A program made the translations under genes and the position numbers. A DNA stretch of 64,000 nt from Bacteroidota bacterium (lineage in GTDB: Bacteria > Bacteroidota > Bacteroidia > B-17B0 > Aurantibacillaceae). Shown here piece after piece: positions 6,871 to 23,823 of the stretch. Every line of letters begins with the position of its first letter. Within the stretch, counting starts at the first letter, position 1. The stretch covers positions 1 to 64,000 of the forward strand of contig JAUXTT010000044.1 of the NCBI GenBank assembly GCA_030684395.1. Reading direction: 5' to 3'. The notes under the pieces were generated by a model. That model ran no database searches and was not told the DNA's origin. It was given only the letters and a program-made list of their open reading frames with translations.

Positions 6871-6921
6871 TGTTTATTCCTTTATTTATTTTAAATTATA
6901 CTTAACCCAATTCGGAACACT

Positions 6922-9381
6922 ATGACTTCTGAAGAAAAGATCCAGTTGCTTGCCCAAAAACTTAATTTATTAAGTTCAAACCTCGAAAAACAAAAATCAG
7001 ATATTGAGTTTATCCGACAGCAGATAGCTCTGTTATCACAATCTCAACCACAGGAAAAAACAGTTCCTGTTATAGAACCGGTTAAACCGATTGTACCTCC
7101 GGTTCAGCAAGTAGTACCACCGGTTCAGCAAGTGGTTACTCCTGTTGAACATTTCGACAAGCCTAATGTGACAGTAGTACCTGAAACAAAACAAACACCT
7201 GCTACTCCGGTAATAGAACCGGTTAAACCAATTGTTCCGCCACCAAATGCTATTCCTCAACAACCTGCTAAGGCTGCAAAAGCTTTTAATATGGAAGAGT
7301 ATGTGGGTGGTAAACTTGCCGGAATCATTGGTATCATCATTTTAGTAATTGCAATTGCAATCGGAGTTAAGTATGCAATCGACAAAGACCTTATCAATCC
7401 ATTAACACGAATCATTTTCGGATTCCTTGCAGGTGGTATATTAATGACCTTTGCTATTATCTTAAAGAAAAAGTATCAGTTGTTCAGCGCTGTAATTTTA
7501 GGCGGGGCCGTCTCCACTCTATTCTTTACAGCATTTGCAGGAAACGCTTTTTATGAGATCTATCCACGTGGTTTTGCATTTGCACTGATGTTCGTTATTA
7601 CAGCTTTCACTGTTTTTGCTGCGCACATGTACAATTACGAAATTATTGCTGTTATTGGATTGGTTGGTGCATACGCTATTCCTCCTTTGCTGAGTGATGG
7701 AAGCGGTAAGATTGAATACATGTACACTTACATGGCAATCATCAATGCAGGTATTTTGGTTTTAAGTCTTTTCAAAAACTGGACATGGGTAAAATACTCT
7801 GCTTACGGATTAACCTGGATCTTAGTAGCAAGTTGGACATTGAATAAGTATACACTCGATAAATTGAACATGACAGTAATGTTCAGTACTATTTTCTTCC
7901 TTACTTTTTACGCAACCTTTATCGCTTACAAGATCATCAAGAAAATTCCTTTCCAAGCAATGGATATTATTACTCTTTTGAGTAATAGTACCATTTATTT
8001 TGGATTGGGGTATTATGCACTTAACAATGAGTTTACCGAAAAATACTTAGGATTGTTCTGTGTTTTTAATGCTTTGGTACACATGATAGTTGCTTATGCA
8101 GCTTATTCCAGAAAAGTTACAGATAAGAATATTTTGTATTTTATTCTCGCGCTTGTATTTACCTTTCTTACTATCGCTATTCCAATTCAGTTGGAAGGAA
8201 AAGTAGTTACACTTTGTTGGTTTGCTGAAATGGCTGTATTGTATTTTATCGGACGCAAATTCTCTGTTTCCTTCTTCAAACAAATTGCTTATACGGTTGC
8301 CGCGTTAGGATTCATCAGCTTGTGGCACGATTGGATGAAGTACTATTCGGAGATCTTCGACAAAGATGCTTACATCCCGGCAAAAATATTATTAAACAAA
8401 ATGTTCCTTACTTCCGGATTTGCCATTGTTGCTTTGGGAGCATTATGGTTTATGCTGAAAGAAAAATTCAATACGGAAAATAATCCCGATAGCCATCGGG
8501 ATGCCGCTTATCCTGCAATGAAAATAATTACTCCGGTTTTGTTTTTTATTACGGTATACTTCTCCTTCTTTTTTGAGATCATTCATCATTTCAAAAACTG
8601 GGAAAATGCAACTACTATAAGAGAAACAGGCTCTGTTTATATTGCACCAATAATGAACAAAGCTATACCCTTATTCCTTGTGCTTTGGTTAGTGATCTAC
8701 AATGCGGTGTTTGCTTCAGTGGTTTTATTCATCAATAGTAAAATCACTAAATCGAAAGGAATACACTGGGCTTTTTATATCATGAGTTTTTTAGCGTTGT
8801 TTATATTGATGGCGGCCGGTTTTACAGCTTTAACCCAGCTGAGAAATTTTTACAACTCTGCCAGCGAAGATTATTTCCCTTATGCATTTAAAACAAATTG
8901 GATGCTGAATTTCAGGTATGTGTTTATGCTTTTTACCTTCGGTATTTTGTTCCTTATGTTTTTCGCACAAAAAGCTTATGGCAATAAACTGGCACGTTCC
9001 ATCTTTATATGGGTTTTCCACCTTTCTGTATTGATCATTCTAAGTAGTGAATTAGTGAATCAAATGCGTTTGTCTCATGCCGATGATGCTGTACTTTATG
9101 AAAAAGTCGCGCGCAGAATGGGCTTCACTATTTTGTGGGCATTGTACTCTACCGTATTGATCGTTTTTGGGATTGCACGAAAAATCAAAATGCTCAGAAT
9201 AATGGGCTTCTCTCTTTTTGGAATTACACTCATTAAATTATTGATCGATTCTATCCATATGTCGATGGGCTATAAGTTTGTAGTTTACATTTCAGTTGGT
9301 GTTATACTTGTTACCATTGGATTTCTATATCAGCGTTTCAAAAAAATTCTATTCGAAGATGACAATGAAAATAAAAATTAA
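6922..9381 (+). CDS. DUF2339 polytopic membrane protein
   Basis: 819 residues. The N-terminal 30 residues form a short coiled coil. A Pro/Val-rich linker (about 45-115) holds two copies of PVIEPVKPIVPP, and about 20 hydrophobic helices follow from residue 130 to the end. This is the DUF2339 family of large inner-membrane proteins, whose biochemical role is unknown. The downstream gene overlaps its 3' end by 23 bases, and DUF2339-DUF3999 pairs recur in other bacteria, suggesting one complex. An oddity: codons for NPDSHRDA near residue 523-530 come from a palindromic repeat (8483-8502) lying in a loop between helices. Confidence 0.88.
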   Translation: MTSEEKIQLLAQKLNLLSSNLEKQKSDIEFIRQQIALLSQSQPQEKTVPVIEPVKPIVPPVQQVVPPVQQVVTPVEHFDKPNVTVVPETKQTPATPVIEPVKPIVPPPNAIPQQPAKAAKAFNMEEYVGGKLAGIIGIIILVIAIAIGVKYAIDKDLINPLTRIIFGFLAGGILMTFAIILKKKYQLFSAVILGGAVSTLFFTAFAGNAFYEIYPRGFAFALMFVITAFTVFAAHMYNYEIIAVIGLVGAYAIPPLLSDGSGKIEYMYTYMAIINAGILVLSLFKNWTWVKYSAYGLTWILVASWTLNKYTLDKLNMTVMFSTIFFLTFYATFIAYKIIKKIPFQAMDIITLLSNSTIYFGLGYYALNNEFTEKYLGLFCVFNALVHMIVAYAAYSRKVTDKNILYFILALVFTFLTIAIPIQLEGKVVTLCWFAEMAVLYFIGRKFSVSFFKQIAYTVAALGFISLWHDWMKYYSEIFDKDAYIPAKILLNKMFLTSGFAIVALGALWFMLKEKFNTENNPDSHRDAAYPAMKIITPVLFFITVYFSFFFEIIHHFKNWENATTIRETGSVYIAPIMNKAIPLFLVLWLVIYNAVFASVVLFINSKITKSKGIHWAFYIMSFLALFILMAAGFTALTQLRNFYNSASEDYFPYAFKTNWMLNFRYVFMLFTFGILFLMFFAQKAYGNKLARSIFIWVFHLSVLIILSSELVNQMRLSHADDAVLYEKVARRMGFTILWALYSTVLIVFGIARKIKMLRIMGFSLFGITLIKLLIDSIHMSMGYKFVVYISVGVILVTIGFLYQRFKKILFEDDNENKN
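8483..8502. repeat. Palindromic repeat inside DUF2339 coding sequence
   Basis: ATCCCGATAGCCATCGGGAT has 8-base perfect arms around AGCC. It keeps the reading frame and falls in a hydrophilic loop. It is near-identical to the intergenic palindrome at 29171-29188. Confidence 0.7.
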
Positions 9382-12139: not shown

Positions 12140-14281
12140 ATGACACAATTAGGTACACAACACACATTCGACATCGGTGATGGAAGAATGATCACCCTAG
12201 AAACAGGAAAATTAGCGAAACAAGCAGATGGTGCGGTAGTTTTAAAAATGGGAAACACCATGCTATTAGCAACCATCGTTAGTAATAAAGAGGCGAAAGA
12301 AGGCGTTGACTTCTTACCTTTAACAGTTGATTACCAGGAAAAATATGCTTCTACAGGAAGATTTCCAGGTGGATTTTTAAAACGTGAAGCGCGTTTATCT
12401 GATACTGAAATTTTAATTTCACGTATCGTTGACCGTGCAATGCGTCCACTTTTCCCGGATGATTATCACGCTGACACACAATTAATGATCACACTAATTT
12501 CTTCAGACAAAAAAACATTGCCTGATGCTTTAGTTGGTTTAGCAGCTTCTGCAGCAGTTGCAGTTTCTGATATTCCTTTCAACGGACCGATCTCTGAAGT
12601 TCGTGTAGGTAAAATTGACGGTAAATTAGTATTGAACCCTGATGTTGACGCTTTGGCTTTATCAACTATTGATATGATTGTTGCTGCTTCTGCACACGAT
12701 ATTGTAATGGTGGAAGGTGAAATGAGCGAGATCAGCGAACATGAAATGTTGGAAGCTATTAAATTCGGGCACAACGCAATCAAAGTTCAGATCAATGCGA
12801 TTAACGAATTTGCTGTTAAAGCAGGTTTAAAACCAAAACGTGAATACAATCACGAAACAAACGATCTTGAATTAAAAGAAGCAGTTAGTAAAGCTACATA
12901 CCAAAAAGTTTATGACGTTGCTAAATCAGGTAACGCAAACAAAAACGAACGTAAAGCTGCTTTCAAAGCAATCCTCGACGAATACAAAACAACTTTTACT
13001 GAAGAGCAATTGAAAGAAAAAGCTGCTTTGATCGCAAAATATTATCACCATGTTGAGTACGATGCTATCCGCCGTGTTGCATTAGACGAAAAAATTCGTT
13101 TGGATGGCCGTAAAACAACTGATATCCGCCACATCTGGAGCGAGGTAAATTACTTACCTGCAGCTCACGGTTCAGCAGTATTTACACGTGGAGAAACTCA
13201 ATCTTTAACTTCGGTTACGTTAGGAACTAAGTTAGATCAGCAAATGATCGACGGTGCTTTCTTCAAAGGTGAAAACAGATTCTTATTACATTACAATTTC
13301 CCGGGATTCTCTACAGGTGAGGCAAAACCTAACCGTGGACCTGGACGTCGTGAAGTTGGACATGGTAACCTGGCATTGCGTGCTTTGAAAAAAGTATTGC
13401 CAATTGATTGTCCGTATACTATCCGTGTTGTTTCTGATATTTTAGAAAGTAACGGTTCTTCTTCAATGGCTACTGTTTGTGCAGGTACTCTTGCATTAAT
13501 GGATGCAGGTGTTAAGATCACTAAGCCTGTAACAGGTATTGCAATGGGATTGATTACTGACGACAAAGGGAAATATGCTATTCTATCTGATATCTTAGGT
13601 GATGAAGATCATTTGGGCGATATGGATTTTAAAGTGTGTGGAACTAAAGACGGTATCACTGCTTGCCAGATGGATCTTAAAGTAAATGGTTTACCATTCG
13701 AAGTAATGGAACAAGCATTGAACCAGGCTAAAGAAGGACGTTTGCATATCTTAGGTGAAATCAACAAAACATTGTCTGCACCTCGTGAAGATTACAAAGA
13801 ACATGCTCCGCGTTTATTACAAATTGTTATACCTGGAGAATTCATTGGTGCGGTAATAGGGCCAGGTGGAAAAATCATTCAGGAAATCCAGAAAACTACA
13901 CAAACAACTATCACTATCACGGAGCAACCGGGAGAAAAAGGTTTGGTGGAAATTTTCGGAGCAAACGATACCGATGCACAGGCAGCTTTAATGCGTATCA
14001 AAGGCATTGTAGCAGTTCCTGAAGTTGGTGAGATCTATGATGCAAAAGTAAAATCAATTATGCCATACGGAGCTTTTGTTGAGTTCCTTCCGGGTAAAGA
14101 TGGTTTATTACACATCTCTGAAGTTGATTGGAAACGCCTTGATACATTAGAAGGTGTGCTTAAAGAAGGTGAAATGATCCAGGTAAAATACATGGGCATC
14201 GATCCAAAAACTAACAAACATAAATTATCAAGAAAAGTTTTATTGCCAAAGCCGGAAGGTGCTGAAGCAAAACAGAACTAA
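12140..14281 (+). CDS. pnp: Polyribonucleotide nucleotidyltransferase (PNPase)
   Basis: 713-residue 3'-5' phosphorolytic exoribonuclease of RNA turnover; length is standard. Order: RNase PH domain 1 (from about 10, [22 protein letters not shown]), a helical linker, RNase PH domain 2 (from about 310, [17 protein letters not shown] and [17 protein letters not shown]; catalytic acidic cluster [15 protein letters not shown]), a KH domain ([13 protein letters not shown], near 574) and a C-terminal S1 domain ([17 protein letters not shown]). The ATG at 12140 gives the expected N-terminus. Its leader holds a GC-rich repeat element, so regulation may differ from the E. coli RNase III-dependent autoregulation. 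Confidence 0.98.
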
Positions 14282-14305
14282 ATTGTGATTTGAGAATAAT
14301 GAAGG

Positions 14306-14334
14306 AAGCCCTGCAGGAATGTGGGGCTTTTTTG
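14306..14334 (+). terminator. pnp terminator
   Basis: AAGCCC (14306-14311) pairs with GGGCTT (14324-14329) and is followed by T-rich sequence (TTTTTTGTTTTT). The stem is short but GC-rich and well placed 25 bases after the pnp stop. Confidence 0.75.
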
Positions 14335-14507
14335 TTTTTGGGAAAAGGAAAACATATATTTGGTTAGAAAAGCTGAAGAGATACAACAAGTATTTCCAAT
14401 TAATTACAAACGAAAAAATTGCGCTTAACGGGAGTTATGGGCAAAATTATAAAAAGGCCACTCTATAATAAAAAGAAGTATTTTTATAGATATTTAAAAG
14501 GAAAAAT

Positions 14508-15728
14508 ATGATTGAGAATTTAAAAGTTGACGGTTTTAAATCATTGAGAAATTTTGAAATAAAATTTCAAAAAGGGATTAATGTTATTGTTGGACCTAAT
14601 GGAGTTGGTAAAACAAATATATGCCAAGCCCTCACGATATTATCTTCCTTAACGAATAATTCACTAAACGATGCTTTTACACAATTTGGTGGAGTTCGCT
14701 CGACTTTTAATTTGGTAGATTGCGAACAAGAAAACAAAAAAATAACTGTTGAAGCTAGTGGAAGAACCATTGGGACATTCAAAAATCAAGAGTATGATTT
14801 GGAATTTAAATACTCTATTGAGCTTGGACTATCAGAAGAATTATTAGTTAATTCTGAAGTTCTTGAGGTAAAGAGAAAATCTAAGCAAGGTACTTATAAA
14901 AAAGTACTCTCTATTAAACAAGATAAAAAAACACTAGTAGCTAAAATCCTGGACAATGAACTCATTGGAGATTTTAGCGTAATTAAAAAAGGGGAAAAAC
15001 AATTTAAATTAGAACTTAATGAATCTGAATATGAAAGCAAAAGCTTTCTCCCCCTTATATCAAGATTCATTTTTGTTTGCCATTTAGTTGCAAGAGAATT
15101 TTCTAAAATAAAATCTTTAAATATAGACCCTCACATCGCTAGACAAGCTTGTGACATAACTGAACCAAAAGAAATGCTAGGAAATGGAAAGTATTTAGCG
15201 AATACTCTTCATTTACTTTCTAAAAAACCTGATGACCTAATTGAAATTAACTCAATACTTGAGCAACTTTTGCCAAATTTTAAAGAGATAAAACCAGAAA
15301 TATCTGAAATTAGTTTAAAGAGATTTTTCTCTCTTATAGATAAAAGGAGGCACGGATTTTCATCAAATAGCCTTTCTGATGGCACGATAAAGCTGCTAGC
15401 TCTACTAGTTGGTATTGTTAGACAAAAAGAAAAAACAACAATAATAGAGGAACCCGAAAATTATCTACACCCATACGCAAATCGACTATTAATTAATTAT
15501 TTGCGAGATACATTTGACAATGGAGTTTGTATTCTGACGAGCCATTCGGAAACAATATTAAATTTAATCCAACCAGAAGAACTCATTATTTGTGAGTTAG
15601 ATGGAAGCTTTACAACTTGTAAAAGGCTTGACAACATTGAGAGTATAAAAAGAGTAATTGAATCTTCAGGATTTGGCTGTGGGTATCATTACATAGCCGG
15701 CAATCTTGGAGGTACGCCACAATTTTAA
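14508..15728 (+). CDS. AAA family ATPase (AAA_21/OLD-like), candidate defence gene
   Basis: 406-residue RecF/SMC-like ATPase. The N-terminus MIENLKVDGFKSLRNFEI is typical of the OLD/AAA_15/AAA_21 group. Walker A is GPNGVGKT (29-36); the ABC-type signature region is SLSDGTIKLLALL (about 290-302); Walker B is TIIEEPENYLHP (about 311-322); the switch histidine is in SHSETIL (about 344). The middle is a helical insertion. It ends without the C-terminal TOPRIM nuclease of full-length OLD proteins. The next gene starts 4 bases later and may supply a TOPRIM-like fold. Codons are strikingly A/T-rich beside pnp, suggesting acquisition. Substrate and trigger are unknown; anti-phage defence is inferred from architecture. 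Confidence 0.85.
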   Translation: MIENLKVDGFKSLRNFEIKFQKGINVIVGPNGVGKTNICQALTILSSLTNNSLNDAFTQFGGVRSTFNLVDCEQENKKITVEASGRTIGTFKNQEYDLEFKYSIELGLSEELLVNSEVLEVKRKSKQGTYKKVLSIKQDKKTLVAKILDNELIGDFSVIKKGEKQFKLELNESEYESKSFLPLISRFIFVCHLVAREFSKIKSLNIDPHIARQACDITEPKEMLGNGKYLANTLHLLSKKPDDLIEINSILEQLLPNFKEIKPEISEISLKRFFSLIDKRRHGFSSNSLSDGTIKLLALLVGIVRQKEKTTIIEEPENYLHPYANRLLINYLRDTFDNGVCILTSHSETILNLIQPEELIICELDGSFTTCKRLDNIESIKRVIESSGFGCGYHYIAGNLGGTPQF

Positions 15729-15732
15729 TTTT

Positions 15733-16347
15733 ATGAGTTTAAAAAACATTGCACTAATTGTTGACGGACCAACCGAGGAAGGTTCGTTGAGATTAAAATT
15801 TCAAATGAAATATTGTGATTGCCCAAATTTAAGAATTGGACCAGGAAACGGTATTACATACACAACTGAAGGTTATGCAAAAGGAGTACTACCTACCTTA
15901 ATATACTTATTAAATTCTTCTGTTCGAGCAATCATATTAATTCCTGACTTAGAAAAACGCAAAGTAACACCTGCAGACTTTGCAAATAATCTAAAAAAAA
16001 CAATTGTTGATTTTCTATTGGCTGAAACTTCATTTCTAAAGCCTCATTTAGAAGAAACAATACACATTTGTCCCCCAGACATAATGTTTGAGAATTGGAT
16101 AGTTTCGGACGTTGAAGGTATTAAAGATGGTAATAGTTTAATTCATGCTGGCGCAGTACAAAAAGATTTTGATGGAAAGAATGGGACTTCGGAGTTGCAA
16201 AAATTGATGACAACGAAATATAAAAAAACTGTACACGCCAAATTATTGTACAAAAAGACAGACGATGAAAGAAGTGCTAATAATTCAAGCAGTTTTAAAT
16301 CATTTATTGACAGCTTTCATCAATTGTATACTAAACATTGTCTTTAG
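15733..16347 (+). CDS. DUF4276-like (TOPRIM-fold) partner of the AAA ATPase
   Basis: 204 residues from the ATG at 15733; a TTG at 15706 in the same frame would overlap the ATPase and is less likely. The N-terminus NIALIVDGPTEEGSLRLKF matches the VEGxTEE signature of DUF4276/TOPRIM-like proteins. Acidic residues follow at IILIPDLEKRK (Asp72, Glu74), and PPDIMFENWIVSD (about 114-126) fits the FE-[ST/N]-W/L block of the family. In TOPRIM nucleases the first Glu and the DxD/E pair bind metal. Together with the upstream ATPase it forms a two-gene unit like PARIS (AAA_15 + DUF4435), but the family differs. Nuclease activity is not proven; the second acidic motif is D-x-E rather than D-x-D. Confidence 0.72.
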   Translation: MSLKNIALIVDGPTEEGSLRLKFQMKYCDCPNLRIGPGNGITYTTEGYAKGVLPTLIYLLNSSVRAIILIPDLEKRKVTPADFANNLKKTIVDFLLAETSFLKPHLEETIHICPPDIMFENWIVSDVEGIKDGNSLIHAGAVQKDFDGKNGTSELQKLMTTKYKKTVHAKLLYKKTDDERSANNSSSFKSFIDSFHQLYTKHCL

Positions 16348-16378
16348 TAATAAACTTTACAGTCTCTATTCCAGTTAA

Positions 16379-16423
16379 CGCGGATTTGTAATCTTTGTTA
16401 CCCCAATCTCCCTCGCTCCGCAG
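16379..16423. repeat. Repeat fragment left of the HipA/DUF3037 pair
   Basis: This carries CGCGGATTTGTAATC and, 20 bases on, CGCTCCGCAG followed by GATG. The same two words (ATTTGTAATC, CGCTCCGCAG) occur at 18259-18357 on the other side of the HipA/DUF3037 genes, in reversed order. Confidence 0.45.
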
Positions 16424-16471
16424 GATGAATAGAAGAGCAATACTACCTGATCTAAAAGGATTGGAATTAAT

Positions 16472-16501
16472 AAAAAAAGCTCCTGATTTCTCAAGAGCTT
16501 T
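16472..16501 (-). terminator. Terminator of DUF3037 gene
   Basis: AAAGCTC (16476-16482) pairs with GAGCTTT (16495-16501). Read on the minus strand the hairpin is followed by seven T. It sits 20 bases after the DUF3037 stop. The gene arriving from the left would also meet the hairpin. Confidence 0.7.
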
Positions 16502-16521
16502 CATTCAAAATATTTAGTTGA

Positions 16522-17370
16522 TTAATCTTGAAATTCGATTTCCTTAACAACCTTATCCGTGTAGGTTTCAATTTGGCTTTCTTCAATCACAGCTGCATTT
16601 GCACCTGTCTTATCAAGAATTTGCTTAGCATAATTATAAGAATCAAGAAAGCTAGGAACCTGAGGTTTAATTAACAATAGGTCTATTCTGGAATTCTGCT
16701 TACTAATAATACCTGATAGGTGGTTTAATTGATTTTGAATAAGTAAAGCCTTGTTTACAATACCTTCCTCTTCACTCAAATCAAATGTAACTCCCTTGAT
16801 TAAATTACAAGTTCCATTCTGCCAGCTTAAGTCATATTTAAAAACAACTTTATCGCTTGCTAATGGTTGCTTAGCAACATGCAAGGCTTTTTCAATTTCT
16901 GGTCTTTTGCCAAGAATTATTTTCTTACACTCGTTAACTATTAACTTATCTGATTTATGTTTAACCTCGCTATGAGCTACTTCATAAGAGTCGAGATACA
17001 AATCAAAATACATCTTCTTTGTATACTCTATGCTATTTACCGACAAAGCATGGCTAAAATTTGTGAATTGAAGTGATGAGCCATCGGTTACAAGAAACTG
17101 CTCATTAATTAACTCATCATATCCAAAAACATAGTTCTTCAAACTACTAACCATTTTAGGAGCTTTAACTTTGAAGGAATGTAGATATGATTTAAGCAAC
17201 TCTATGGAAACATTTGGGTACGCTTTTTTTATCCTTTGAATCGAACTTGGATACACAAATTCCACATGACCATCTTCGGGGAATACAAATAAAATTCCCA
17301 CATTCAATTCCTCACCAATGAGTTTTGAATGGGTATATTTTAATATGCTATATGAAACGGTTCCGCTCAC
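16522..17370 (-). CDS. DUF3037 family protein, partner of HipA-like kinase
   Basis: 282 residues starting at GTG 17370, which overlaps the TGA of the upstream HipA-like gene (GTGA), so translation is probably coupled. The N-terminal half has the DUF3037 signature: VSYSILKYTHSKLIGEELNVGILFVFPEDG, seen here in short blocks, followed by FVYPSSIQRIKKAYPN. The C-terminal half is a separate alpha/beta region ending IETYTDKVVKEIEFQD. There is no membrane segment or known catalytic motif. DUF3037 genes are often found beside HipA-like kinases (family knowledge), but their joint function is not known to me. It could be the antitoxin, regulator or substrate of the kinase. Confidence 0.8.
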   Translation of the reverse strand: MSGTVSYSILKYTHSKLIGEELNVGILFVFPEDGHVEFVYPSSIQRIKKAYPNVSIELLKSYLHSFKVKAPKMVSSLKNYVFGYDELINEQFLVTDGSSLQFTNFSHALSVNSIEYTKKMYFDLYLDSYEVAHSEVKHKSDKLIVNECKKIILGKRPEIEKALHVAKQPLASDKVVFKYDLSWQNGTCNLIKGVTFDLSEEEGIVNKALLIQNQLNHLSGIISKQNSRIDLLLIKPQVPSFLDSYNYAKQILDKTGANAAVIEESQIETYTDKVVKEIEFQD

Positions 17371-18200
17371 AGTAATGATTCCTTTAAAATGGACACAAAG
17401 TTAGTACGATTTTGCTTAATATCATAAAGATAAGCTTTCCAAGCCTTACATTCACTAATATCATAGTCAAATTCAGTTAATTGGGCGTTAAGAATATCTA
17501 AATTTCCCAAGTTCAGTGAGTTAAAATATTCTCTGAACGTCTCAAATTTTTGGTCTATTCCACTTTTCTTGGCTCGCCTTTTTAACATTTCATAGAACAA
17601 ATGATACTTGTTATAAGGGCATAATCTATTGTTTGCAATCTCCCGTAAAGCATAATCCACACTACCAAAAGCCTTATCATGGTCAATTAGGCAATAACCA
17701 TCGGCTGTCTTAAGCATATTAGGTTTCACCCGCTTTCTGTCATCATTTAGAATTAAAGTATCGAAAGCATAAATCGTCTCAATATCGTGCGACTCAATAT
17801 ATTTTTTATGAAGCGCAGGAGAGAATATAGGCAGATCTCCGAGGTATACAGTGGCAAAACACGGTCTTGTATAATCTTTTTGCAGAAGCAGTTTATGTAA
17901 AGCTGGGTTAGTCTTTTTGTAAAGCTTAATTAATTCTTTAGGAATGCTAATAAAGGCGGCTTCAGGTGTATTTAATTCAAACTGCTTCGCTAAGTAGTGT
18001 GCATAAACCTCTGCACCTGTGTAACACCTTTGGTTTGCATGTTTCTTCCCAAACAGTTTTAATACATACGTCTTCTTATTTTCAGCAACGGAAAGCAACG
18101 GAAGTGTTGTACCTCCTTGTATAGGCTTCTCTCTAATTTCAATAGCTCTGTATAAAGGCAATTTGCTCACTTCTCTCAATCTGAATAGTACGGATAACAA
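17367..18200 (-). CDS. HipA-like kinase (HipA_2 type)
   Basis: Up to 277 residues, shorter than classical HipA (440). It lacks the HipA N-terminal subdomain and has no HipB-like partner. Kinase marks: TYVLKLFGKK with the candidate ATP lysine Lys48, Glu64 in TGAEVYAHYL, the catalytic loop LILNDDRKRVKPNML (Asp153/154, Asn161) and the metal-binding LIDHDKAFG (Asp173). So it is probably an active Ser/Thr kinase-fold enzyme. There is no ATG at the N-terminus. The first candidate, TTG at 18200, overlaps a -7 promoter box (18198-18205), so translation more likely starts at TTG 18179 or GTG 18170. It overlaps the DUF3037 gene by 4 bases. Classical HipA phosphorylates GltX; the target here is unknown. 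Confidence 0.82.
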   Translation of the reverse strand: MLSVLFRLREVSKLPLYRAIEIREKPIQGGTTLPLLSVAENKKTYVLKLFGKKHANQRCYTGAEVYAHYLAKQFELNTPEAAFISIPKELIKLYKKTNPALHKLLLQKDYTRPCFATVYLGDLPIFSPALHKKYIESHDIETIYAFDTLILNDDRKRVKPNMLKTADGYCLIDHDKAFGSVDYALREIANNRLCPYNKYHLFYEMLKRRAKKSGIDQKFETFREYFNSLNLGNLDILNAQLTEFDYDISECKAWKAYLYDIKQNRTNFVSILKESLL

Positions 18201-18205
18201 ATGTA
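18198..18205 (-). promoter_or_regulatory. -7 box of HipA-like/DUF3037 operon
   Basis: TACATTTG on the minus strand matches TAnnTTTG. It overlaps the first possible start codon, implying a start further downstream and a short leader. Confidence 0.5.
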
Positions 18206-18258
18206 CATAAATCTATTCTTTACTTTCATTTTATATTTCTGAAATATTCAAATGCTCC

Positions 18259-18357
18259 CGCTCCGCAGTATGTCCCGAAGGGCATCCGCCGCCGCGGACT
18301 GCGGAATATGAAATATACTGGAGTTTATAACTCCTCCACTCTTACGAATTTGTAATC
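18259..18357. repeat. GC-rich inverted repeat right of the HipA/DUF3037 pair
   Basis: CCGCAGT (18263-18269) pairs with ACTGCGG (18298-18304) around a GC-rich core (CCCGAAGGG, CGCCGCCGCGG). A second hairpin GGAGTTTATAACTCC lies at 18320-18334, and ATTTGTAATC at 18348-18357. It stands out in an A/T-rich region and shares words with 16379-16423. Confidence 0.55.
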
Positions 18358-18388
18358 AGTATGGATTTTATATATCTTAGATACTTAT

Positions 18389-18964
18389 ATGGAGCGATCA
18401 GGAGAAAATGTACATCTATTTACGCAAAGCTATGAATCTGAAAGAAGGATTGAAATAAGTCTTGCTACAAAGTTGGGGCTTAGCGACCTTAAGGCTGGAA
18501 ATATGGTGATCCGTGATGAACGAGGCTGGCGACAAAATGAAAAGTATATTGACCATGTTTGGATCGTTTATATTGCCAGATCCTTTGTTGGTTGGTGCGG
18601 AATATTTTCCATTAAATTCAATGAACATAAATTCCGTGAACATTCAAATCCTGAAGAGTTGGTGCAAGGCGTTTTTTCCCTCGATAATAATGGTGTCACC
18701 AACATATATTCGGAAATTTCAGAAAACAAGCAGGATACAATCATTGATCATTTCAAACTTGATTTATTTAATGCTAATAAAGGAATTGCTTTAGATGGTA
18801 TTTCATATAGGCTTAGAATTATTTCCAGTAATATAGACACATTTATTTCTGTTCACAATCCAACCTCTAGTAATTGGCAGAAGTGGGAAAATGAAATCCA
18901 TAGCTTAGGTAAGCAACTCGCGAGTAAATCAGACATTCCTGAAATTATTCAGGTATTTAAATAA
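18389..18964 (+). CDS. Hypothetical protein
   Basis: 191 residues starting at an ATG at 18389, with no signal peptide or membrane helix and no family I recognise. It looks like a mixed alpha/beta cytosolic protein. Notable stretches are HVWIVYIARSFVGWCGIFSIKF (in short blocks, beta-rich) near 50-75 and a C-terminal helical segment WQKWENEIHSLGKQLASKS. It lies just right of a GC-rich repeat element and points away from the HipA/DUF3037 operon, so it belongs to the accessory stretch by position. No partner gene is evident: the next gene is a lipoprotein 56 bases further on the same strand. Confidence 0.6.
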   Translation: MERSGENVHLFTQSYESERRIEISLATKLGLSDLKAGNMVIRDERGWRQNEKYIDHVWIVYIARSFVGWCGIFSIKFNEHKFREHSNPEELVQGVFSLDNNGVTNIYSEISENKQDTIIDHFKLDLFNANKGIALDGISYRLRIISSNIDTFISVHNPTSSNWQKWENEIHSLGKQLASKSDIPEIIQVFK

Positions 18965-19020
18965 ACTCCACAACTTGTCTTGTCCTATAAAACATGAACT
19001 GATACACAAATCAAACACAA

Positions 19021-19557
19021 ATGACCAAAACACTTCAAGTCCTTCTAATTATTATCATTTTCAACACTGCATGTCGTAGCACTAAAGTAGTAGAGCAAGC
19101 CCAATATACAGTTCAGGAAAAATTAAGTCATCCCTTTGGAACTGTCTTAAAAATGAAGGTGGAAGTTGTTGATGGTGATACAAGGGGTAGTAAAGGTTAC
19201 AATTCCAGTTTCTATTTCAAAATAAAAAGTGTGGAAGGAAAATCTATTGGCGGCAATGTAATTATGGACTTTCAAAATAGCTTCAATATCAATTTGCCAA
19301 GGAATGAAGAAGAACTTTATGAATACATTTATAATAAAAAACAAGAGTCATCAAACAGAACGGAATTAGATTCCTTAAAAAAAGAGTACGTTGGAAGTAC
19401 TTTTGAGATTATAGCCTATGAAACAGGACGATTTTCAGGCATCCCTAATGGGCCGAAAGAATATGACAAATGTTGGGAAGCCTGGCAAGATCAAGGCTTC
19501 CATTTTGAAAATTACCTTTTGATACTATGTGACTTAAACAAGAAAAAAGAGAAGTAG
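19021..19557 (+). CDS. Hypothetical lipoprotein
   Basis: 178 residues. The N-terminus MTKTLQVLLIIIIFNTACRS is a hydrophobic signal with a cysteine at 19. The residues before it (NTA) are a relaxed form of the lipobox, as tolerated in Bacteroidota. The mature part contains FGTVLKMKVEVVDGDTRGSKG and FKIKSVEGKSIGG, suggesting a beta-barrel-like OB or lipocalin-type core, but I recognise no family. The C-terminus has an aromatic YDKCWEAWQDQGFHFENYLLIL segment (in short blocks). It is likely anchored in the periplasmic or outer face of the envelope. Function is unknown. Confidence 0.6.
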   Translation: MTKTLQVLLIIIIFNTACRSTKVVEQAQYTVQEKLSHPFGTVLKMKVEVVDGDTRGSKGYNSSFYFKIKSVEGKSIGGNVIMDFQNSFNINLPRNEEELYEYIYNKKQESSNRTELDSLKKEYVGSTFEIIAYETGRFSGIPNGPKEYDKCWEAWQDQGFHFENYLLILCDLNKKKEK

Positions 19558-19610
19558 AACCCCGCTCTCACGATCCCGAAGCTAAGAGAAGTAACCAATA
19601 ACTTAACCAC

Positions 19611-20054
19611 ATGGCAAAGAAAAACAAAACAGCAGAAACAGAAATAAGTGTGATCGACTTCATTAATTCCTTTGTGGAAGATGAGCAAAAGAAACTGGAT
19701 AGCCTGGAGTTGATAAAACTCATGAGCAAATGGTCGGGCTTTGCTGCTAAAATGTGGGGGCCAAGCATTATTGGATTTGGTAGCTACCATTATAAATATG
19801 CCAGCGGTCACGAGGGAGACGCTCCTATCATTGGCTTCTCTCCACGTAAAGCTGCGTTCTCATTGTATGTTTACTCTGCAACCAAAGACAACGAACATTT
19901 GTTGAACGACCTGGGTAAATTCAAAATCGCAAAAGCTTGCATTTATATTAAAAAACTTTCCGACATCAATATTCCGGCATTGGAGAAAATCTGCAAGGAT
20001 TCCATTGCTTATATCAACAAGCATCATGAATGTGCTTGCCATGATAAGAAATAA
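19611..20054 (+). CDS. DUF1801 (YdhG-like) family protein
   Basis: 147 residues, typical length. The family core is clear: KLMSKWSGFAAKMWGPSIIGFG, SYHYKYASGHEGDAP and IIGFSPRKAAFSLYVY (cited in blocks), then KACIYIKKLSDINIPALEKI. DUF1801/YdhG proteins share the YjbR-like fold with unknown molecular function. A second member of the broader fold, the MmcQ/YjbR protein at 29658, is in the same window. Cytosolic. The C-terminus ends in a His/Cys cluster (KHHECACHDKK) that could bind metal, a feature I cannot place in the family. Confidence 0.88.
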   Translation: MAKKNKTAETEISVIDFINSFVEDEQKKLDSLELIKLMSKWSGFAAKMWGPSIIGFGSYHYKYASGHEGDAPIIGFSPRKAAFSLYVYSATKDNEHLLNDLGKFKIAKACIYIKKLSDINIPALEKICKDSIAYINKHHECACHDKK

Positions 20055-20134
20055 GGGAAATTTGTTAAACCCGTGCGTAACCAAACCATTAAGCCCTGCC
20101 AAGATACGGGGCCTTTTGTTTTGAACAGAAATAG

Positions 20135-20142
20135 TATATTTG
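20135..20142 (+). promoter_or_regulatory. -7 box of hydrolase gene
   Basis: TATATTTG with a TTG at 20116-20118 (16-base spacing) upstream. It lies 26 bases before the ATG at 20169 and inside the longer open frame that begins at 20073, so it supports the downstream start. Confidence 0.6.
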
Positions 20143-20168
20143 AACGGGTTTCCAAAAGTCCCCAAAGA

Positions 20169-21740
20169 ATGAAAAAAGACATCAAAGCAGCAAATCTTGT
20201 AAACCTGAAATTCATTTTTTGCTTGTCTATACTCTTTGCTTATGTTTCTGTGATTGCACAAAAAAAAGTATTGTATCCTAAGCTGGAAAAGAGCCAATAC
20301 AACATTGGCTACAAAACAATTATTGATTTTGATAGTTCAAGAACCTACAAGCTAAACTACCCGAATGATACAAGTTCTTTAACTCACGATCCACGACCCA
20401 TTATTACCTCTATCTGGTATCCTGCAAACATAAGCAAAGCAGACAAAGCCATGTTGTATGGAGATTATATAAAGGTTCAATCAAAAGATCCCAAATTAAA
20501 AACGTTTTTAAAAAGAATTGAGGACTATAATGCACTGAGTTCATCTCAATGTATGTTTGATGTGGATGATCCGGATGAAGAGCAAAAGAAAATGGTTCCA
20601 AAACACTTAAAACAACCAATAGAAGTTTTTAAAAACGCTACTCCTGTAAATATGAAATTTCCGCTTGTCATTTATCATCCCGGTTTGGGCGGAACACTGA
20701 ACGACAATACCGTTTTATGCGAATACCTGGCCAGTAATGGTTTTGTGGTAATGTCAGGAGCTTTTCAGGCTAATGATTATAAATATGTTGATTTAGATTG
20801 GGACCTGGAGCGTTCTACAAAAGATATTGGTTTTATGTTGAATGCAATTAAGAACCTGCCCTTCGTTGATTTTTCAAAAATAGCTGCTATTGGTCACAGT
20901 TTTGGAGCACAGGCAGTTTTAGGATACAAAACACAAAATGCTTTGCCCATATCGTGTCTTATCATTCTCGACAGTACTGTTGATTATGCATTTGACGCAA
21001 AGCCTGAAAATTTTAAACGGTTAACCGACAAGTTGTATAAGAAAATTGATAACATGAATGTACCCATGCTGGTTTTTGCAGCTCCTGATGCTACATTTAA
21101 AGTAATGGATTCACTCTCACATGCTGAGAGAATATACGCCACGATTGAATTAGAGCACAACGAATACACTTCACTAACATCGTATGCAATATTGAACGGG
21201 TTGCAGGAAAGGGACGATAATGAAACTGTATGGGCTAAATATACATTGATAAATAAGTATTGTTTAAATTATTTAAAGCACACTCTTTTCAATGATACAT
21301 CTGCTAAGAATTTTATTTTATCAAAACACACGCAATTGGTTAAGGTTTACGAAATACCTAAAGGTAGCTCACTTTACACACTGACTCCTGAATATTCAGA
21401 TTATTCAAAGCCGCCCTCCTACTTACAATTTCAAAAATTATTGACAGGAAGAAAAAAAGAAGTAATAGATAAAATAATTCAGACAAATCCTGATCATTTG
21501 AGTGAAGATGTAATTAATTCGGCCGGATACACATTCTTAAAAAGAGACATTGATTTTGCATTTTATTTATTTCAAAAAAATGTTGAATCACATCCGAAAT
21601 CTTCTAATGTATACGACAGCATGGGAGAAGCTTATATGATAAAAGGAAAAAAGGAATTGGCAATTAAGAGCTATGAAAAATCTATTGAGCTAAATCCGAA
21701 CAACAAAAATGCATTAAAAATGCTTGAAGGACTTAAGTAG
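20169..21740 (+). CDS. Exported alpha/beta hydrolase with C-terminal TPR
   Basis: 523 residues from the ATG at 20169 (the frame is open from 20073, but a promoter box lies between). An N-terminal signal peptide ends near VIAQ. The hydrolase core is related to platelet-activating-factor acetylhydrolase/dienelactone hydrolase-like enzymes: oxyanion region VIYHPGLGGTLND, nucleophile elbow AIGHSFGAQAV with the catalytic Ser, a candidate acid in LILDSTVDY or PMLVFAAPDATF, and a candidate His in IELEHNEYTS. The last 80 residues form TPR-like helices (YDSMGEAYMIKGKKELAIKSYEK, in blocks). Periplasmic or secreted esterase/lipase is likely; the substrate is unknown. A hydrolase-TPR fusion occurs in Bacteroidota esterases. 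Confidence 0.82.
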   Translation: MKKDIKAANLVNLKFIFCLSILFAYVSVIAQKKVLYPKLEKSQYNIGYKTIIDFDSSRTYKLNYPNDTSSLTHDPRPIITSIWYPANISKADKAMLYGDYIKVQSKDPKLKTFLKRIEDYNALSSSQCMFDVDDPDEEQKKMVPKHLKQPIEVFKNATPVNMKFPLVIYHPGLGGTLNDNTVLCEYLASNGFVVMSGAFQANDYKYVDLDWDLERSTKDIGFMLNAIKNLPFVDFSKIAAIGHSFGAQAVLGYKTQNALPISCLIILDSTVDYAFDAKPENFKRLTDKLYKKIDNMNVPMLVFAAPDATFKVMDSLSHAERIYATIELEHNEYTSLTSYAILNGLQERDDNETVWAKYTLINKYCLNYLKHTLFNDTSAKNFILSKHTQLVKVYEIPKGSSLYTLTPEYSDYSKPPSYLQFQKLLTGRKKEVIDKIIQTNPDHLSEDVINSAGYTFLKRDIDFAFYLFQKNVESHPKSSNVYDSMGEAYMIKGKKELAIKSYEKSIELNPNNKNALKMLEGLK

Positions 21741-21898
21741 TCTTGGCAGAAAAGGTATTGTTAGCAAGGTCACGAAGCTTCGGGATGTAAACCTATTTTA
21801 GGACAAAACATTTATATTATCCTCCGATTACAAAGACTCGCCGTAAAATAGTGCTAAACTAAGCGGACAGGTTTCAGGGGCTTCTCATTTAATTCATC

Positions 21899-21906
21899 TA
21901 TCTTTG
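21899..21906 (+). promoter_or_regulatory. -7 box of first T9SS cargo gene
   Basis: TATCTTTG, 24 bases before the ATG at 21931. It overlaps the TTG that opens the frame at 21904, so that TTG is not the start. Confidence 0.5.
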
Positions 21907-21930
21907 GTAGCTAAACACAAATTAAAACAT

Positions 21931-23823
21931 ATGCAAAAAACTTACAAATTTAAACTTTCGGTATTTTTAGGTATGCTTTGTCTCTTTCTTGGCACAAACA
22001 TTTCCGCACAATCTCTTATTTATGACAACGGTCCTTATTACAATGCAGTAGGCACGGGAGCCGGTGGGGCCAACGAAAGTGTGCTTTACACCACTACCTT
22101 TGGAATGGGAACCATAGGATTCGGACACCAGAGCAATACATTCAACCGTGTGGCCGATGATTTTACTATCACCGATTGTTACTGGCGAATTGACTCTATT
22201 GCTTTTTTCGGATACCAGACAGGCTCAACAACAACATCTACCTTTACCTCTTATAACTTCAGAATATGGGACAGTGTGCCCGACGCGCCGGGTTCAAATG
22301 TGGTATTTGGCGATACAACTACTAATCGTTTGATTAACACCGGGTGGAGTGGTGCTTACAGGGTTACGGAAACCACCATGGGTAATTCAACAAGGCCGAT
22401 CATGCGCAATGTATGTACAGCAGAAGGAAAACTCTTGCCGGCAGCAACTTATTGGATCGATTGGTCAACAACAGGAAGTCTTGCTTCGGGTCCTTGGGCT
22501 TGTCCATTAACACCTCCGGGTGTTGCAATAACAGGAAATGCAAAACAACGAACAAGTGGAACCTGGAATAATATGTTAGATGGAGGCACTGGTACTCCCG
22601 CTCAGGGACTTCCTTTTATCATTTATGGAACAATAATAAACCTCGCAGCTGATGCAGGTCTTAACACACTTACATGTGTTGGAGCAAATGTTATGCTTGG
22701 TGGAACACCTGCGGCTACGGGCGGGCAAGGGACAATAAGCTATGCCTGGTCTCCTTCCGGAGTTATTGTAGATACTACTGTTGCCAACCCAACTTTCACT
22801 GTGACTGATTCGATGACATTCTTTCTTACTGTTACCGACACATTAGGTTGTGTAGGTATGGATACTGTTGTAGTAGATACAATGTCCATACAGGTATCGA
22901 TCAGCGTAAACGGAGATACTGTTTTCTGTGCAGGAGACAGTGCTCAACTTATTGCAAGCAATAGCTTAGGATATACTTACTTATGGAACACTACTTCTAC
23001 CGATTCAGCGATCACCGTTTATAACGGAGGATTATATGATGTAAGCGTTTCAAATGGTTTGGGTTGTCAGAGCGCCGCTTCTGTAAACATCACCGTAAAT
23101 GCGGTTCCAATCGTTACTATCAGTTCATTGGGCTTAACCGCCGTTGAATGTGAAGGATCGTTGGATACATTAGTTGCCACTGGAGCTGATACTTATACAT
23201 GGAATACATTTGAAACCAATGACACGCTTGCAGTAGTTCAAACATCAGGAGTGACATCGTGGACAGTGATTGGTACAGATGTGAACGGATGTTCAGACAC
23301 AACTGAAACAACTATTACCAATGTGAGTACACCATTTACTGTTAGTCTTGATTTAACAGCAATTGATACTAACTGCGTAAACGCAAGCGCATTTCCTTTA
23401 GCAACAGCAACTCCTTCCGGAGGTACCTGGAGTGGAACAGGTGTTAGCGGTTCTGATTTTGACCCGGCAACAGCTGGTGTAGGAACTCATTTCCTAACCT
23501 ATACTGTACTGAATAGCGACAATTGTGTGAGTTCCGCAACCGACAGTATTTTTGTTTCAGGATGTGTTGGTTTAGAAAATTACTCAGCACAAGCAAACTT
23601 ACTTGCATTTCCAAATCCATCAACCGGAAACTTTACTCTCCAATATAATCATGATGCTTCATTTGTGCTGGTAAACGAACTGGGACAAACTATTAGCAAT
23701 ATTATTTTAAACAGTAACAATAATTACTCCCACACATTCACCAATCTTGATAATGGAATTTATTTTATTAAAGGAATGATGAACGGTCAGTTAATGACTA
23801 AAAAGATAGTCGTTACTAAATAA
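21931..23823 (+). CDS. Secreted protein with T9SS type A sorting domain
   Basis: 630 residues from the ATG at 21931. Signal peptide (about 1-28, ending NISAQ), an N-terminal beta-sandwich-like domain rich in G/T/S (about 30-225), immunoglobulin/PKD-like repeats with paired cysteines (about 230-540), and a C-terminal type A sorting domain from about 560: LLAFPNPSTGNFTLQY, FVLVNELGQ, LDNGIYFIKGMMNGQ and the final KKIVVTK. T9SS carries such proteins across the outer membrane and removes the C-terminal domain. The catalytic or binding role of the N-terminal domain is unknown. The last 250 residues are closely similar to the downstream gene at 24139, as are the two terminators. Confidence 0.88.
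   Translation: MQKTYKFKLSVFLGMLCLFLGTNISAQSLIYDNGPYYNAVGTGAGGANESVLYTTTFGMGTIGFGHQSNTFNRVADDFTITDCYWRIDSIAFFGYQTGSTTTSTFTSYNFRIWDSVPDAPGSNVVFGDTTTNRLINTGWSGAYRVTETTMGNSTRPIMRNVCTAEGKLLPAATYWIDWSTTGSLASGPWACPLTPPGVAITGNAKQRTSGTWNNMLDGGTGTPAQGLPFIIYGTIINLAADAGLNTLTCVGANVMLGGTPAATGGQGTISYAWSPSGVIVDTTVANPTFTVTDSMTFFLTVTDTLGCVGMDTVVVDTMSIQVSISVNGDTVFCAGDSAQLIASNSLGYTYLWNTTSTDSAITVYNGGLYDVSVSNGLGCQSAASVNITVNAVPIVTISSLGLTAVECEGSLDTLVATGADTYTWNTFETNDTLAVVQTSGVTSWTVIGTDVNGCSDTTETTITNVSTPFTVSLDLTAIDTNCVNASAFPLATATPSGGTWSGTGVSGSDFDPATAGVGTHFLTYTVLNSDNCVSSATDSIFVSGCVGLENYSAQANLLAFPNPSTGNFTLQYNHDASFVLVNELGQTISNIILNSNNNYSHTFTNLDNGIYFIKGMMNGQLMTKKIVVTK

Follow-up and report, generated by a model that had tools for sequence, protein, structure and literature searches.

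A divergent HipA_2-DUF3037 gene pair in a Bacteroidota genome as a probable HipAD-type toxin-antitoxin phage-defence module

Analysis of a 64,000-nucleotide stretch of DNA from a Bacteroidota bacterium (the window) identified a two-gene unit, a HipA_2 kinase gene followed by an overlapping DUF3037 gene, that is very likely a toxin-antitoxin phage-defence pair of the HipAD type (PDC-M66 / DS-6). The pairing of the two families is nearly strict and their order fixed, and the window pair is a divergent Bacteroidota copy of this recently described phage-defence system. The original prediction had suggested a toxin-antitoxin unit with a new antitoxin as one reading of the locus. The toxin-antitoxin part of that reading gains support from homology to tested pairs (PMC12548924, PMC13092281), but the antitoxin is no longer new, since the names PDC-M66, DS-6, and HipAD already exist for the pair. 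Both predicted open reading frames were confirmed with their coordinates unchanged (Table 1).

Table 1. Positions of the HipA_2-DUF3037 pair, its junction and surroundings, and a second pair in the same genome
Feature	Position	Strand	Remarks
HipA_2 kinase gene, putative toxin (HipAD "A" / PDC-M66A)	17367..18200	-	PF20613, PDC-M66A
DUF3037 gene, long form, putative antitoxin (HipD-like / PDC-M66B)	16522..17370	-	282 aa, GTG start
GTGA overlap, kinase stop/DUF3037 start	17367..17370	-	read on the minus strand
Intrinsic-terminator-like hairpin	16475..16502	-	12-bp stem, T-rich tail; just past the DUF3037 stop
AAA_21 ATPase + DUF4276-like two-gene unit	14508..16347	+	overlapping genes; context, outside the pair
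Short-class pair L077	kinase 7251-8045, DUF3037 6890-7273		G000:C35, ~68.9-70.0 kb; same genome

The kinase matched PF20613 (HipA_2) in the Pfam profile search (E value, 8.5e-19; residues 20 to 228) and PDC-M66A among the PADLOC models (E value, 1.9e-21; residues 14 to 273). Its start is probably the GTG at 18170, giving 267 amino acids, rather than the TTG at 18200, giving 277, because the kinase of the closest relative (L090) begins approximately 8 to 10 residues later. L090 shares 52% identity with the window pair in the kinase and 57% in the DUF3037 protein. The catalytic loop and the metal-binding Asp are retained, as originally predicted. The residues invariant across 18 HipA_2 kinases of both the long and the short class (see below) include K48, E64, D147, N152, D154, R155, N161, D173, and H174, and the catalytic set is therefore intact. 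By likeness to HipA, Asp154 would be the catalytic Asp, with Asn161 as the metal Asn and Asp173 as the metal Asp. The loop from the catalytic Asp to the Asn spans D+7 in the window kinase versus D+5 in the HipA proteins encoded by the same genome. A search of the kinase profile against solved structures returned no significant full-length match (best, PI4-kinase type II and HipA 4pu3, with E values of 0.07 to 0.3), and hhalign comparison of the kinase profiles with single HipA/HipT-like sequences of the same genome produced no alignment of value. Some relatives of the pair are broken, with the L092 kinase lying in two frames and the L057 and L093 kinases truncated, which would fit a decayed or inactive remnant. 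Such decay is very unlikely for the window pair, since both open reading frames are full length and all catalytic residues are kept. Further, codon positions 1, 2, and 3 differ by 38, 29, and 57% between the window and L090 kinase genes and by 35, 24, and 60% between their DUF3037 genes, a pattern that shows selection at the protein level on both.

The partner protein matched PF11236 (DUF3037) above the curated Pfam cut-off (E value, 1.8e-5) over residues 7 to 71 only; this short match and the divergence of both window proteins count against the HipAD assignment. The PADLOC model PDC-M66B covered residues 4 to 279 of the 282 (E value, 1.6e-33), and the profile of the window DUF3037 family aligned with HipD over 262 columns with a probability of 97.4%. 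Against solved structures, the DUF3037 profile gave no significant full-length match, and the matches returned look like chance. A DUF1829 domain is named in DS-6B (PMC13092281); in the profile search, DUF1829 was matched neither in the window DUF3037 protein nor in the HipD of Escherichia coli phage PhiR5_1.

The GTGA shared by the kinase stop and the DUF3037 start is present as predicted, and a Shine-Dalgarno-like stretch (AAAGGA) lies inside the kinase gene just upstream of the DUF3037 start. Translational coupling of the two genes is likely. Comparable 4-bp overlaps were observed in L090, L091, L094, the phage HipAD, and L103. The region holds three terminator-like sites versus 1.4 expected in shuffles, including the hairpin that follows the DUF3037 gene. 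Neither a HipB-like nor a HipS-like gene was found in the 188 bp upstream of the kinase, beyond which lies a gene of the opposite strand; the unit therefore includes no HipB or HipS. A GC-rich hairpin (18262-18305; TCCGCAGT...ACTGCGGA) is located between the kinase and this divergent gene. It is single copy in the genome, which rules out a genome repeat.

The catalytic motifs place the window kinase among the HipA-superfamily Ser/Thr kinases, and the pair would share the toxin logic of HipBA. It differs from HipBA in the absence of HipB and in a different antitoxin. The kinase itself is smaller, at 267 to 277 amino acids versus 406 for a HipA of the same genome, and the N-terminal HipA subdomain was not found in it, the HipA_2 match beginning near the N terminus. 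Both absences, of the subdomain and of a HipB-like gene, had been correctly anticipated. HipBST likewise possesses a short kinase that lacks the N-terminal subdomain, whereas the window pair has neither HipB nor the small HipS gene. The same genome also encodes three canonical HipA_C genes (L118, L119, and L120, on G000 contigs C6, C16, and C33). These loci hold one HipB and HipA pair, one HipB/HipS-like/HipT-like set (L119), and one HipS-like and HipT-like pair, and at L118 the full-length HipA adjoins a gene for a 95-amino-acid HTH protein.

Pairing was surveyed in 392 Bacteroidota genomes, with the phylum read from named relatives (e.g., Bacteroides ihuae and other Bacteroidetes MAGs). A HipA_2 kinase lies beside DUF3037 on the same strand in 87 of the 91 DUF3037 matches, and the kinase comes first in all 87 pairs, which excludes chance pairing. 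The strict pairing inferred at first from the overlap is borne out, and the contrary expectation, that DUF3037 would mostly be found apart from HipA_2, fails in these genomes. Both families occur together in 84 genomes compared with 21.5 expected under independence, a figure that treats related genomes as independent although they are not. Conversely, 16 kinases have no partner that matches the Pfam DUF3037 model; 4 of these gain one with a broader profile, and approximately 12 look solitary.

HipAD was reportedly described by Brenes and Laub in 2025 as a HipA toxin and HipD antitoxin from E. coli prophages. The PhiR5_1 record annotates its pair in the same way, as HipA toxin and HipD antitoxin. 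Like the window pair, HipAD consists of a HipA_2 kinase followed by DUF3037 with a 4-bp overlap and no HipB, and its proteins are of similar size (249 and 275 amino acids). The two differ in sequence: identity between the window kinase and the PhiR5_1 HipA is 29% over 171 columns (57% of the length), and the kinship of the DUF3037 proteins is clear only by profile. The A and B models of PDC-M66, a two-gene candidate in PADLOC, cover the window proteins nearly full length, but the sequence of the window pair departs from the phage copies nearest the model (114 bits versus 370 bits for L103).

Phage defence, a role absent from the original prediction, is the published function of these relatives (PMC12548924, PMC13092281). 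DS-6 (DefensePredictor), since renamed HipAD, pairs a HipA-like kinase with a DUF3037 protein; its defence is lost when the kinase active site is mutated, and AlphaFold3 predicts a complex (PMC13092281). The HipA-DUF3037 pair found beside Retron-Sda1 works alone: deletion of the kinase abolishes defence against Bas51, deletion of DUF3037 renders the construct toxic, and the Sda1 reverse transcriptase and noncoding RNA (ncRNA) are dispensable for defence (PMC12548924). By analogy with these relatives, we infer the toxicity, neutralisation, defence, trigger, and target of the window pair. The free HipA_2 kinase would be the toxin, phosphorylating a host target and stopping growth. Translation from the overlapping start would supply the long DUF3037 protein alongside the kinase, to which it would bind as a silencing partner, and phage infection would release the kinase so that the infection is aborted. 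The pair could alternatively act as an effector within a retron or some other larger system, the view initially taken of Retron-Sda1, and six retron reverse transcriptases are indeed linked to HipA/DUF3037 pairs (PMC12548924). This is extremely unlikely for the window pair, given that the Sda1 retron components are dispensable, that retron genes were not found beside the pair, with no reverse transcriptase among the flanking genes scanned with Pfam, and that its close relatives stand alone amid unrelated genes. Rfam returned nothing above threshold at 14000-22000.

Kinase-DUF3037 pairs were also identified on 10 viral contigs, some of them nearly identical, as well as on phage PhiR5_1 and two plasmids; a viral scan with A3 returned no viral match. 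On nine viral contigs (L109 to L117), a HipA_2 kinase is followed 1 bp later by a gene for a 277-amino-acid protein that has no DUF3037 match and carries a similar N-terminal motif. It may be a diverged partner, possibly of a third kind. The families are distributed patchily among relatives, occurring in 5 of 31 genomes. The pnp gene is conserved in a genome of the same genus (G001) and in G009, and everything past it differs. A clean empty insertion site was not found in either of these two genomes, because the sequence beyond pnp varies between relatives. Other genes sit after pnp there, suggesting that in these genomes the window pair is not ancestral.

The DUF3037 matches of the 392 genomes fall into two classes, a short class of about 127 amino acids (71 matches, all paired) and a long class of approximately 280 to 310 amino acids (20 matches, 16 paired), to which the window pair belongs. 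The four matches with no adjoining kinase match are all of the long class; like the solitary kinases, they count against the HipAD assignment. The kinases share a mean identity of 60% within the short class versus 25% within the long class. In the kinase tree the short class groups as one clade, the exception being L098, a plasmid copy in which DUF3037 is divided between two open reading frames. Genomic context was compared through the PADLOC matches listed (best 25 families). Among these, type I restriction specificity subunits (at least 4 among 76 neighbours), methylases, and other defence genes occur in the neighbourhood of long-class pairs, while restriction genes are absent from the matches listed for short-class neighbours. 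In 20 short-class loci sampled, neighbouring genes are common only to a few close genomes. The long class tends to lie among defence genes, and no defence-island context is seen in the matches listed for the short class.

Both classes are represented in the window genome, each by a single pair. Its short pair (L077; 264 and 127 amino acids, with a 23-bp overlap) adjoins ordinary genes, one of them tRNA nucleotidyltransferase-like. The conservation of this class, its ordinary genomic surroundings, in which no defence gene is listed, and the occurrence of some HipA_2 kinases alone would suit a signalling unit of the kinase-regulator or kinase-substrate kind that has no toxin role, with the kinase controlling a cellular process by phosphorylating DUF3037 or another protein. 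We consider this unlikely for the window pair, a member of the diverse long class, copies of which occur on phage contigs and plasmids. Its relatives cause toxicity when DUF3037 is missing and confer defence when it is present (PMC12548924). A division of the family into two functional classes can be put forward tentatively: the fast-diverging long class would serve in phage defence, with its extra C-terminal region of approximately 150 amino acids making the pair a phage sensor, and the slowly evolving short class would have another, possibly physiological role. The main HipAD paper (Brenes and Laub 2025) left aside, the two-class split appears undescribed in the literature examined. A genome that combines a long pair, a short pair, and canonical HipA genes offers a favourable setting for probing the function of the antitoxin's additional C-terminal part.

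The window pair is itself convergent to another two-gene unit (Table 1), which contains an AAA_21 ATPase (E value, 3.1e-24). This unit matched HEC-01A strongly (E value, 4.9e-45) and HEC-01B only at an E value of 5.4e-6, and by sequence it is a candidate HEC-01-like defence unit that also resembles other ATPase-based candidates.
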